In this document: piece by piece, positions 33,778-38,862 of the stretch | Layout of the letters: each line of letters starts with the position of its first letter | How positions within the stretch are numbered: position 1 is the stretch's first letter | Source of the DNA: Lentisphaerota bacterium | GTDB taxonomy: Bacteria > Verrucomicrobiota > Kiritimatiellia > UBA8416 > JABMPJ01 | Reading direction: 5' to 3' | Assembly (NCBI GenBank): GCA_013203785.1 | Contig: JABMPJ010000150.1 | Location: forward strand, 1-38,963 | DNA: 38,963 bases | Notes under the pieces: model-generated | Database searches by the model: none | What the model saw: only the letters and a program-made list of their open reading frames with translations | Told to the model about the DNA's origin: nothing | Program-made: the position numbers and the translations under genes

Positions 33778-34740
33778 TTACCGATTTCCTACCGGAGTGA
33801 AGGACGGCATCGTGCTTGTTGTTGTCGTGGTGCTGCTATCGGTACCCGGATCATCGTCATCATCGTCATCGGGCCACAAGTAGTCCGTCTCTTCGATGGT
33901 TGTGGTCGTGGTTCCATCATCGTCATCATCGTCTGCCATGACCGGGGGCTCGACGGGTGCGCCGTCGGCTTCAGGCTCAATGGTGTAATTGACTGCTTCG
34001 GTCAATGAACCATCCGGGCCCACGATCAGAACGGTAACCACCATGGCGTCTGAGGTGTCGGCTTTGCGCCGCCAGATCTTCACGACGCCGTTTTGCTCCA
34101 GTGTGACAGTGCGGGGGGTGCCGGTATCATCTATGAAGACGACGTCAAAGCTTCCCTTGATGTTCTTAATGCGGATAAAGGACTGATCCTCGGCACAGGA
34201 GACCGATACGAGATCGTCTGCATCGAGTAATGGGATCTGAAACATATCGGACATGATGCTGACCGCGCCGGAGGCGCAGCCAAATACGGCTATCTTGAGG
34301 TCCGCTTCCGACTTCACTTCAGCCGTGAATGCGCCACCTACGCCGTGGGCGGATGAGCAGGGCGTGACGACGGAGAGCTCATTTTGCTCTTCGAGTGAGG
34401 CTTCGATTTTTCCGGATTGCAGGAGGATTGATTTCTGGGAAGGGTCCATGCTGCCCTCGACGACATCAAGGCTGGCCATGGGGCCGACCTGACAGCTGTT
34501 GTTGTCAGCCAGCATGATCACTACCGACCCACGTTTCTCGGTGTGCAGCGAGCTCCCGTAGCCGTAGGCCTTACCTTCCTGGGCGTCATCGAACCCACTA
34601 CTACCCGGCGTCTTGACGGTGACGTCGCCGTTGGCTTGGACCAGCCGGAAGACAGGCTCATAGGGAACGGCCACAGCCAGTGTTGCTGTGATGCATAAAA
34701 CGGCTACCAGTGCTAGATATAAACCTGAATGCCTGTGCAT
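33778..34740 (-). CDS. Exported FecR-domain protein with Asp/Thr-rich tail
   Basis: A 320-residue exported protein. The signal peptide occupies about 1-25. A FecR-like beta domain lies at about 30-130 (FRLVQANGDVTVKTPG, then the ILLQSGKIEASL segment), and a second beta-rich part follows to about 260. The last 50 residues alternate runs of six and seven Asp with runs of five Thr, encoded by near-perfect ATC/GTC repeats. No sigma/anti-sigma pair is next to it, so it is probably not the classical iron-signalling FecR. ATG 34740 has AAGGAGG upstream; GTG 34749 is too close to it. Confidence 0.8.
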   Translation of the reverse strand: MHRHSGLYLALVAVLCITATLAVAVPYEPVFRLVQANGDVTVKTPGSSGFDDAQEGKAYGYGSSLHTEKRGSVVIMLADNNSCQVGPMASLDVVEGSMDPSQKSILLQSGKIEASLEEQNELSVVTPCSSAHGVGGAFTAEVKSEADLKIAVFGCASGAVSIMSDMFQIPLLDADDLVSVSCAEDQSFIRIKNIKGSFDVVFIDDTGTPRTVTLEQNGVVKIWRRKADTSDAMVVTVLIVGPDGSLTEAVNYTIEPEADGAPVEPPVMADDDDDDGTTTTTIEETDYLWPDDDDDDDPGTDSSTTTTTSTMPSFTPVGNR

Positions 34741-34856
34741 GGCCTGCACCCTCCTTATTTATCAAAAGTTCTGAGTGATATTGTCTTCTAAAGCGTACGG
34801 CACGGCGACCGGAACCGTCAAGGCGGGATTTCGTGCTATTTGAGCTCGAAGCCCCT

Positions 34857-35829: not shown

Positions 35830-36618
35830 ATGTCGGCGGTTGGGAACATTGGAGCATCATTTCTGGATCGCGTGGCTTCGGTGCGCCGCGTGGGAGCCGT
35901 AATCTGTGGCGTCCTCTACCTGGCCGTTCAGCCGCGTTACTGGCCGCGCACGGTCCGTGAGCGCACGGCGAAACAGATCCTCTTTACCGGCTACGAGGCA
36001 CTCAGCCTTGTGCTTCTCCTCTCGATTCTGGTGGGCGTGTCGGTGGTGGCCCAGACCCATCTGTGGCTCAGTCGTTTTGGTCAGTCGGATATGCTCGGAC
36101 CTCTCCTGGTGGCGATTCTGGTGCGCGAGGTCGGTCCACTCCTCGTCAACTTCATTGTGGTTGGCCGCAGTGGTACAGCGGTGGCCACGGAGCTGGCCAC
36201 GATGCGGGTACATCGTGAGATTGATGTCCTGGATGCGCAGGGGGTCGACCCAATGGTCTATATGGTTATGCCTCGCGTCCTAGGTATGATGTTTTCGGTT
36301 TTTGGTCTAACCATGATGTTTATTGTAGGATCCTTTGCCAGCGGCTATGTTTTCGGTTTCATTTTCAACGTGACGCCGGGTGATCCGGCGCTTTTTGCGG
36401 CGAGTCTGTTGCGGGCCGTAACGCCGGGGACTGTGGTCTGCCTGCTGGCAAAAACAGTATTACCGGGTATGGTCTCCGCCACGATTTGCTGCATCGAGGG
36501 GCTGGGCGTCCAGGGGGCATTGACGGAGGTGCCTCAGGCCGCGACCCGTGCGGTCGTGCGCTCGCTCTCGTCGGCCATTCTTATCTCCGCTATCGTAACG
36601 ATTCTGACCTATGTCTGA
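35830..36618 (+). CDS. mlaE: MlaE-type phospholipid ABC transporter permease
   Basis: A 262-residue DUF140/MlaE permease with about five or six membrane segments. It shows the conserved VREVGPLLVNFIVVGRSGTA region and the ELATMRVHREIDVLDAQGVDP coupling region that contacts the ATPase. The start is the ATG preceded by AGGAGGAAGG; the open frame extends back to 35728 without support. It overlaps the next gene by eight bases. Mla-type systems move phospholipid between the membranes; direction is debated in the family. Confidence 0.92.
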   Translation: MSAVGNIGASFLDRVASVRRVGAVICGVLYLAVQPRYWPRTVRERTAKQILFTGYEALSLVLLLSILVGVSVVAQTHLWLSRFGQSDMLGPLLVAILVREVGPLLVNFIVVGRSGTAVATELATMRVHREIDVLDAQGVDPMVYMVMPRVLGMMFSVFGLTMMFIVGSFASGYVFGFIFNVTPGDPALFAASLLRAVTPGTVVCLLAKTVLPGMVSATICCIEGLGVQGALTEVPQAATRAVVRSLSSAILISAIVTILTYV

Positions 36619-37327
36619 TAACCCGATACTTAAGCTGGATGCGGTGACTGTGGCCGACCCGGAGAGGTCTGTGATGGATTTGACCGATATATCCCTACAG
36701 CTGAACCGCGGCGACCTGCTCGTCGTGGTCCCCGAGCGGCACGTTGAGACGGTCTCACTCTACGATGTGGTGTCAGGTTTGCTCACGCCGGATCAGGGCG
36801 GTGTCTTGTTTATGGGGGTGGACTGGCAGAGTATGGGCCTTTTTGGTCAGAGCGAGGCACGCGGTCGACTGCATCGTGTCTTTGAGATCGAGGGCTGGGT
36901 CAGTAATCTGAATGTCTTCGAGAACATCGCGTTGTCAGAACGCCACCATTCTGCACGCCCGGATGATGAACTGCGCCAGGAGATGCGGATGCTTCTCGAG
37001 CGCGTTGGACTGCGTGACTGCCTTGCTGATCGGCCGCATACTCTCTCTCGCTCTGAGCGGCGACGTGCACAGTGGGTACGGGCTTTTATGGGTGCTCCCG
37101 ACTTGCTGCTGCTCAATGCGCCGCTCCTTGATGCGGCACCGGTTCATCATGCCGCGCTTTTTGCCTTACTGGCCGAGTCACTGGCGCGCGGTGCCGCAGC
37201 AATCTGGAAGTCTCAAGATGCCACCAACCTGAGAGACGAGGCTGGCTTTAAGGCTGCCCGCTGGAGCGAACTGGCGGGCGGACGAATGGTGGAGCAGGAA
37301 AAGAGAGAGATGGAGAGTGGATCATGA
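36611..37327 (+). CDS. Degenerate MlaF-type ABC ATPase homologue (probable pseudo-ATPase)
   Basis: A 238-residue protein colinear with MlaF-type ATPases: beta-strand start, VSGLLTPDQGGVLFMG after Walker A, the NVFENIAL segment, PDLLLLN, then SQDATNL and LAGGRMVE. Every catalytic motif is altered. Walker A reads PERHVETVS (41-49) with no glycine loop or Lys-Ser/Thr. The Q-loop Gln is E92. The signature is LSRSE (145-149) instead of LSGGx. Walker B ends N169-A170 instead of Asp-Glu. The H-loop His is Q202. The frame is intact and overlaps both neighbours, which argues against a decaying pseudogene. It may be a structural subunit, with hydrolysis supplied elsewhere or lost. Confidence 0.85.
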   Translation: MSDNPILKLDAVTVADPERSVMDLTDISLQLNRGDLLVVVPERHVETVSLYDVVSGLLTPDQGGVLFMGVDWQSMGLFGQSEARGRLHRVFEIEGWVSNLNVFENIALSERHHSARPDDELRQEMRMLLERVGLRDCLADRPHTLSRSERRRAQWVRAFMGAPDLLLLNAPLLDAAPVHHAALFALLAESLARGAAAIWKSQDATNLRDEAGFKAARWSELAGGRMVEQEKREMESGS

Positions 37328-38862
37328 GTAGGCCGATCAAGTTCCGATATGCCAATGAGATTGCCGGGGCCTTTGTGATTGTTGCCCTCGCACTGTTTGT
37401 GGGCGGGGTCTTCATGGCGGGTCAAAAGCAGGGCTGGTTTGAAGGGAAATTCGAGCTGATTGTAGAATTTGCAACAGCCGAGGGTTCGCTTGGCCTGCGT
37501 GAGGGCGGTGAGGTGTGGGTCATGAACACCGTGGCTGGCCGCGTGGGCAAGATCGATCTTTCTGAAGGGCGGATGCGGGGCCGGCTCATCATTCAGAATG
37601 GCTATTTGCCCCATATACGGACCGACTCGGTGGCACGCGTAAAGAAGAAGTTTGGCCTGGCCGGCGATGCCTATGTCGATATTGAGCTGGGCAAAGGGCC
37701 GGAGGTGATCGATGGCAGTGTGATCGCCTGCATTAAAGACGAGGAGATCATGGAAACTGCCCGCAAAACTCTGGCGGATCTGCAGAAGGATCTTCTGCCC
37801 ATGATCGAGGACTCCAAGGATATCCTGGCGCACGCCAACACGATCAGCGCATCGATTGCTGCCGGCGAAGGTGTGGCGGGCGCGGCAATCAGCGATCCTG
37901 GAATGAAGAAGGACGTGAAGGAAATACTCGCTGGCGTCAATGGCCTTATTCTCGAATCGGAGGATACGCTGCGCGAGACTACGCGCCTGATCAAAGGGGT
38001 TCAGAAGCACTGGCTCGTACGCAAGCACATCGAAAGTCGGGACCCGGAAATTGTGCTCTCAACCGCGCAGATTGACTCCGTCGACCGGGCCCGTCTGGCG
38101 CGCGTGTGGGCCGATGGTGCAAGGGCGGGTCGCTTGGCCAATGAGCCCCGTACCGTGGCCATGAACGCTCTCAATATGGGCTATCTCTGTCTGGACGATG
38201 CGAACTACACCGACTGTGAGGCGTGGCTCTACGAGGCCCGCCTGGAGCTTGTGGCGGCCGGACTCAGCCCGGTGCGGGGGGTGCTTCTGGCTTCCGAATT
38301 GGAGCGTCGCCGCGGCAATCTTCAGTCGGCCCTCAACATCTTGACGGCTGGCCGCGGCCCAGACCGCGATGCCTCGCACGCCGAACGGGTCGCTTGGGAG
38401 TTACAGAAGGCACGCGCCCAGATTGAATCGGCGCAGCTTGAGGCTGCACGTGAGACGCTTGATCGTACGGTCCGTGGCCTGCGCAAGGCAGAGTTGGACT
38501 ACCTTACGGCTGAGGCGACGGCTCTGAACGGCCGCCTGGCGTTGGCTTCTCAGCAGGCCGCCTCCGCCGCGGACCTCTTTGATGAGGCGGCTCGCGGTTA
38601 CCAGCGCGCGGGTCTCTTCGGCGCCATGTGTCAGCAGTTGGTTCGCGCGGGCGAGTCTTACGAGGTGACTGGCGAGGCGACGGTTGCCTTCGACCGCTAC
38701 TATCGTGCTGCGCGTAGCCGGTTGGTTGCGGGTGATGATGCCGACATTCCGCTGTCCGCCGCCCGTCGAATAGCCACCGCCATCGGGGAGCCGGAGTTGC
38801 TCGAGCAGCTCCGGCGGCTCGATCGTATAGCAGGTGGGTCAGGGGCATTTCATCTGAGATGA
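37324..38862 (+). CDS. MCE/MlaD-family protein with C-terminal TPR-like domain
   Basis: A 512-residue protein with an N-terminal membrane anchor (about 12-32), one MCE domain (about 40-125, with GLREGGEVWVMNTVAGRVGKI and the GDAYVDIELGKG ending), a helical linker (about 140-230) and a TPR-like helical domain (about 255-500). MlaD of E. coli is only about 180 residues, so the helical tail is a large addition. MCE proteins form rings or tubes that carry lipid across the periplasm. The start overlaps the pseudo-ATPase stop (ATGA). The tail may bind an outer-membrane or periplasmic partner, as no MlaC or MlaA is nearby. Confidence 0.88.
   Translation: MSRPIKFRYANEIAGAFVIVALALFVGGVFMAGQKQGWFEGKFELIVEFATAEGSLGLREGGEVWVMNTVAGRVGKIDLSEGRMRGRLIIQNGYLPHIRTDSVARVKKKFGLAGDAYVDIELGKGPEVIDGSVIACIKDEEIMETARKTLADLQKDLLPMIEDSKDILAHANTISASIAAGEGVAGAAISDPGMKKDVKEILAGVNGLILESEDTLRETTRLIKGVQKHWLVRKHIESRDPEIVLSTAQIDSVDRARLARVWADGARAGRLANEPRTVAMNALNMGYLCLDDANYTDCEAWLYEARLELVAAGLSPVRGVLLASELERRRGNLQSALNILTAGRGPDRDASHAERVAWELQKARAQIESAQLEAARETLDRTVRGLRKAELDYLTAEATALNGRLALASQQAASAADLFDEAARGYQRAGLFGAMCQQLVRAGESYEVTGEATVAFDRYYRAARSRLVAGDDADIPLSAARRIATAIGEPELLEQLRRLDRIAGGSGAFHLR

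Follow-up and report, generated by a model that had tools for sequence, protein, structure and literature searches.

A conserved MlaF-like pseudo-ATPase in an MlaE-MCE operon of Kiritimatiellia, a probable structural subunit of an ATP-independent lipid conduit

ABC transporters are defined by ATP hydrolysis, and degenerate sites are known among them. The active site is composite, built from the Walker A and B motifs of one nucleotide-binding domain (NBD) and the signature motif of its partner, and the MlaF dimer has been described in these terms (PMC7784689). In degenerate-site exporters (TAP, CFTR/MRP1, TM287/288), catalytic residues have been lost and the fold retained, as in the NBD described here; however, one of their sites is active and the degenerate one still binds ATP (PMC7756269), whereas the present NBD has lost both half-sites.

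Among transporters built on MCE proteins, E. coli MlaFEDB (PDB 6xbd/7cgn) provides the best PDB match, and its MlaF shares with our NBD the ABC fold and the position in an MlaE-MlaF-MlaD operon. The NBD of the window, however, lacks the nucleotide and catalytic motifs and has a shorter C-terminus, and its operon differs in the absence of mlaB, mlaC and mlaA and in a long MCE protein fused to a TPR domain. The minimal MlaEFD system of Veillonella parvula is also alike, with a three-gene mlaEFD core, a long, helix-extended MlaD and overlapping genes; its MlaF, however, is described as closely similar to that of model diderms, and the beta-barrel of its MlaD is reported to be absent in PVC bacteria (PMC10665443). 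PqiABC and LetAB likewise pair an MCE conduit with a partner in the inner membrane, have no known ATPase, and may be passive or PMF-driven; for PqiABC, passive, PMF-driven and unknown-ATPase operation are all open (PMC10897342). PqiA and LetA, however, are not homologous to MlaE and lack an NBD, whereas the lineage of the window keeps a dead NBD beside an MlaE-type ABC permease. Finally, MceG of mycobacterial Mce1/Mce4 is also an MCE-transporter NBD and is needed for the stability of the MCE complex; unlike the dead NBD, it is an active ATPase whose Walker B residues are required, and its Walker B mutants failed to stabilise Mce complexes (PMC9947336). In the open-access literature searched, we found no report of a clade whose only operon NBD has lost both binding and hydrolysis motifs and whose intermediates are extant, a silence that is itself weak evidence.

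Genes and predicted folds of the operon

The window, i.e., the whole stretch of 38,963 nucleotides that was analysed, corresponds to contig C133 of a 4.0-Mb MAG. It carries the following operon:

35830..36618, + strand: mlaE-type permease ("d-type" MlaE), 262 aa; Pfam MlaE, 6.9e-51, and placement in the d-type clade of the MlaE tree
36611..37327, + strand: dead MlaF-like NBD (pseudo-ATPase), 238 aa; Pfam ABC_tran, E = 5.9e-10, AF2 model and Foldseek
37324..38862, + strand: MCE (MlaD-like) protein fused to a TPR domain, 512 aa; Pfam MlaD, 1.3e-5, AF2 pLDDT 86, and Foldseek matches to MlaD and Mce1

The dead NBD gene, with its ATG at 36611, overlaps the end of mlaE, whose stop codon is at 36616-36618, and it overlaps the MCE gene through an ATGA at 37324-37327. 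The initial annotation had read it as full length, in frame and coupled on both sides, which the intact frame and both overlaps confirm. Outside the operon, a gene at 33778-34749 (- strand) encodes a FecR-domain protein with a C-terminal low-complexity, Asp-/Thr-rich tail specified by near-repetitive DNA.

Among the NCBIfam models, MlaF matched the dead NBD best (E = 2.6e-21), with a score far under the equivalog cut-off, and E. coli MlaF was matched in the PDB sequence set with E = 1e-18. The AF2 model, computed from 28 sequences, reached a pLDDT of 93.9 and a pTM of 0.90, and its top PDB matches by Foldseek were the MlaF structures 6xgy, 6xgz and 6xbd. The protein thus has a predicted ABC NBD fold closest to that of MlaF and lies in an operon with MlaE and MCE genes, as MlaE-associated ABC ATPases do, and it lacks their catalytic motifs. 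In its AF2 model, the MCE protein was characterized, from the N- to the C-terminus, by a TM helix (residues 6-36), an MCE domain (42-138), long helices (142-234) and a TPR superhelix (252-510), and Foldseek matched it in the PDB to MlaD and to mycobacterial Mce1 subunits. The features of an MlaD-type conduit, namely the MCE domain, the N-terminal TM helix and the helical tunnel region, are all present.

Residues lost, kept and gained

Motif residues were counted in an alignment of 27 intact, 20 partial and 86 dead NBDs, the dead ones from distinct operon loci, and the changes in the window protein were read against E. coli MlaF (PDB set) and the intact MlaFs of the same genomes. The partial and dead labels were assigned partly by hand; loci L163 and L184 were counted as partial though their Walker A Lys is gone, other partial-type features being kept. 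Percentages below refer to intact/partial/dead NBDs, respectively.

36731..36757, + strand: former Walker A, residues 41-49 (PERHVETVS), K47 changed to T; Lys in 100/90/1%
36872..36934, + strand: Q-loop position (Q changed to E92) and presumed permease-docking groove, residues 88-108, based on conservation; Q-loop Gln in 100/55/2%
37043..37057, + strand: former signature, residues 145-149, LSGGM changed to LSRSE; first Gly in 100/0/3%
37100..37123, + strand: former Walker B, residues 164-171, D169 changed to N and E170 to A, based on the alignment; Asp in 100/95/3%, catalytic Glu in 100/30/10%
37214..37216, + strand: former H-loop His, changed to Q202; His in 100/5/0%

Each of the motif residues named as changed in the initial annotation was therefore confirmed to be so. 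In canonical NBDs of the same genomes, processed with the same pipeline, all catalytic residues were always present. Mean conservation was lower in dead than in intact NBDs at the P-loop (0.31 versus 0.80), the signature (0.41 versus 0.81), the D-loop (0.35 versus 0.87) and the H-loop (0.25 versus 0.75), and the P-loop was deleted in the dead NBDs of Verrucomicrobiales. Conservation of the Q-loop/coupling-groove segment 88-108, which in the window contains W96-x-x-N99-L100-x-x-x-E104-N105, was undiminished (0.70 in dead versus 0.69 in intact NBDs). By carry-over from ABC structures, this segment presumably docks on the coupling helix of MlaE. The MlaE coupling helix has been described (PMC7790496), and in d-type MlaE the corresponding stretch across TM2, coupling helix and TM3 has a strong consensus of its own, comprising E121, M125, E130, L134, G138, D140-P141, Y144 and P148-R149.

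The dead NBDs also exhibited conserved residues of their own, including four tryptophans:

36824..36826, + strand: Trp72, Trp in 100% of the dead set
36896-36898, + strand: W96, Trp in 92% of the dead set
37073-37075, + strand: W155, Trp in 93% of the dead set
37205-37207, + strand: W199, Trp in 99% of the dead set

The commonest residues of intact MlaF at these sites are I, L, L and V, respectively, Trp being fixed in the dead set only. Other gains of the dead set were N99 (95%), L100 (99%) and R141 (95%), the last of which was near-invariant, as was H113; of these residues and G56, N99 and G56 were already common among partial NBDs.

Purifying selection acts on the dead NBD, though somewhat less strongly than on MlaE. 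Its dN/dS (Nei-Gojobori, close pairs) ranged from 0.06 to 0.32 at a dS of 0.35 to 1.7, well under 1; MlaE gave 0.03-0.28 and the MCE protein about 0.03-0.32. Frames were open in all classified members, with no stop codons across several phyla. Sequencing error, frameshift or a pseudogene is ruled out by this low dN/dS and by the open frames of relatives with the same losses; nor can the loss of motifs be a local error, because four congeners and more than 80 other loci have open frames and have lost these residues too. The suggestion in the initial annotation of selection for a non-hydrolysing subunit is thus upheld by the purifying selection, the retention across phyla, the newly conserved residues and the exact co-occurrence with MlaE described below.

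Distribution and ancestry

The dead NBD was found in all four congeners examined (58-61% identity) and, in further families of the same order and class, at 23 more loci (32-42% identity). Scanning GTDB contigs gave 66 named loci, the majority from Kiritimatiellia, with others from Planctomycetaceae/Rubripirellula/Rhodopirellula, four Verrucomicrobiales/Verrucomicrobiia and one Ca. Erginobacter (a MAG labelled Auribacterota). Nearly all dead-NBD members come from metagenome assemblies. A search across the phylum (388 genomes) gave a bimodal score distribution: members (50 genomes, all of the window's class) scored 112-298 bits, and ordinary ABC proteins 99 bits or less. No member from this search had the Walker A lysine motif, LSGG or the H-loop His at the aligned positions. 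Close orthologues were likewise dead, none with intact motifs being found in the genus, order or class.

The order MlaE, dead NBD, MCE was observed at all sampled loci except in genus g51 (L140 = G134:C7; L141 = G148:C242), in which d-type MlaE is found on one contig and the dead NBD and MCE genes on another, both being retained. Of 378 Verrucomicrobiota genomes, 49 had both the dead NBD and d-type MlaE and 329 had neither, with 0 discordant cases (Fisher p ~8e-63, uncorrected for relatedness), and no d-type MlaE adjoining an intact NBD was found in the Verrucomicrobiota genomes searched. Most relatives encode an MCE protein of ~310 aa and a TPR lipoprotein of ~315 aa in separate, neighbouring genes, and the fusion is seen in the window's genus and some relatives; that the two are separate in most relatives and fused in the window suggests that they act together. 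Many relatives' operons extend into genes for an SH3-domain protein and an M48 metallopeptidase lipoprotein (L063:5435-6337, L092:6220-7589). In relatives from the genus and order, a sigma-70 (RpoD-like) gene and a gene for an RRM protein follow the operon (L055:5587-7590, L042:9265-9672).

A search of 294 Planctomycetota genomes with a d-type MlaE profile revealed MlaE-NBD-MCE operons in intact, partial and dead states. In the partial state, Walker A was mostly kept, and the signature and H-loop were lost (Planctomycetota L161, L164, L166, L167, L182, L184, L187-L190, L192-L197, L200 and L203). In a tree of MlaE only, the dead set formed one clade (bootstrap 100/SH-aLRT 96), the intact members were split from the rest (100/100), and the partial members formed a grade in between. 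The three NBD states required two changes on this tree, which is the minimum, versus 34.9 with shuffled labels. The tree was built twice, quickly and carefully, with the same result; its root was assumed to lie among the intact members, and with this root the loss of hydrolysis preceded that of nucleotide binding. Within the partial grade, at least L163 and L184 show a further loss of the Walker A lysine.

Possible roles of an NBD without a nucleotide site

Taken together, these data make it probable that the dead NBD is a conserved pseudo-ATPase serving as a structural subunit of an ATP-independent MlaE-MCE lipid conduit. From its lost motifs, we infer that it does not bind ATP, and dead-NBD transporters, which lack a nucleotide site, would probably operate ATP-free. 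Since both half-sites have been lost, neither a homodimer nor a pair with an intact MlaF would contain a complete composite site; the operon's only NBD, having lost Walker A/B and the signature, does not provide one complete site per NBD dimer.

The ancestor would have been an ordinary MlaF subunit in an MlaE-MlaF-MCE lipid transporter. A first step, the loss of the signature and H-loop, would have ended hydrolysis while keeping Walker A, so that ATP could still be bound; a second, the loss of Walker A and Walker B, would have excluded nucleotide altogether. As homology to MlaFEDB and conservation lead us to infer, the dead NBD would dock on the cytoplasmic coupling helix of MlaE, holding the MlaE dimer together in one conformation, either a conducting or an assembly-competent state. 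It would have been retained because of this docking, a role to which its fold, its conserved region, its co-occurrence with MlaE and the operon coupling all point. MlaE and the MCE/TPR protein might then constitute a conduit that is available at all times, with lipids moving down their gradient or being drawn by a downstream sink, in parallel with an energised, canonical Mla encoded elsewhere in the genome. The Walker B requirement of MceG shows that an inactive NBD is not automatically a scaffold. The balance tips slightly towards the wider proposal that ATP was given up in two ordered, extant steps, leading to a gradient-driven lipid channel in Kiritimatiellia and other PVC bacteria beside an energised Mla. 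The initial annotation had considered operation without ATP, either as a passive conduit or driven by the TPR-bearing MCE partner; the first would fit best, and the second found no support, the TPR part having a lipoprotein gene of its own in most relatives and containing no known energy-coupling domain.

An unlikely alternative is that the fold has been put to a new use, as a ligand sensor or a platform on which proteins dock, with a lipid, another nucleotide or a regulator gating MlaE instead of ATP. The four tryptophans, R141 and H113 are near-invariant, which a bare scaffold might not need, and dN/dS is low; however, the gained residues could simply repack the empty nucleotide site.

The second ATPase invoked by the initial annotation raises a further alternative, in which an intact MlaF from elsewhere pairs with the dead NBD on d-type MlaE as an asymmetric ATPase heterodimer. 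A catalytic paralogue does exist: the window genome contains two MlaE and two MCE genes, the second set belonging to a complete canonical Mla operon with intact MlaF (G000:C42), and canonical intact MlaF was found in 57 of the 59 dead-NBD genomes. Heterodimeric ABC transporters in which one site is degenerate are frequent (PMC7756269), and a shared orphan ATPase, MceG, is known for MCE systems (PMC9947336). The pair would, however, miss Walker A/B at one site and the signature at the other, every intact MlaF already adjoins an MlaE of its own, and the distribution of d-type MlaE matches that of the dead NBD exactly. Moreover, of the two genomes without canonical MlaF, G027 (73% complete) and G134 (scored 100% complete, 110 contigs), the latter had a dead-NBD system and neither canonical MlaE nor MlaF above threshold, an absence that is no more than suggestive, since both are present in its sister G148. 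The heterodimer is thus disfavoured and, in our judgement, quite improbable, and an unusual interaction of the dead NBD with intact MlaF may occur. That the gene is a relaxed, decaying, pseudogene-like remnant retained by its mid-operon position is hardly credible: the NBD does evolve faster than MlaE (~60% versus 87% identity within the genus), and Verrucomicrobiales members have the P-loop deletion, but the dN/dS values given above, the new invariant residues, the high-confidence fold and the absence of stop codons in several phyla argue against decay.

The conduit proposed here would offer a natural experiment on whether MCE lipid conduits need energy, and on which way lipids flow. The graded series of intact, ATP-binding-only and nucleotide-free NBDs could be used to tell apart what ATP binding, hydrolysis and docking each contribute to MlaE gating, the partial NBDs of Planctomycetota being a resource for separating binding from hydrolysis.

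Other arrangements of MlaE were also observed in planctomycetes. At three loci (L198, L204 and L205, in Planctomycetota G689, G514 and G421, respectively), MlaE had no nearby NBD and was neighboured by GHKL anti-sigma-like and STAS anti-anti-sigma-like genes, and it may be tied there to a partner-switching module. We rejected these loci as a state with a still more reduced NBD or none, as their MlaE is not d-type and the gene context is different. A third type of MlaE, at L223 (G410:C124:7600-10200), was found fused to an intact NBD (LSGGQ, DEPT, THD) in one ORF.
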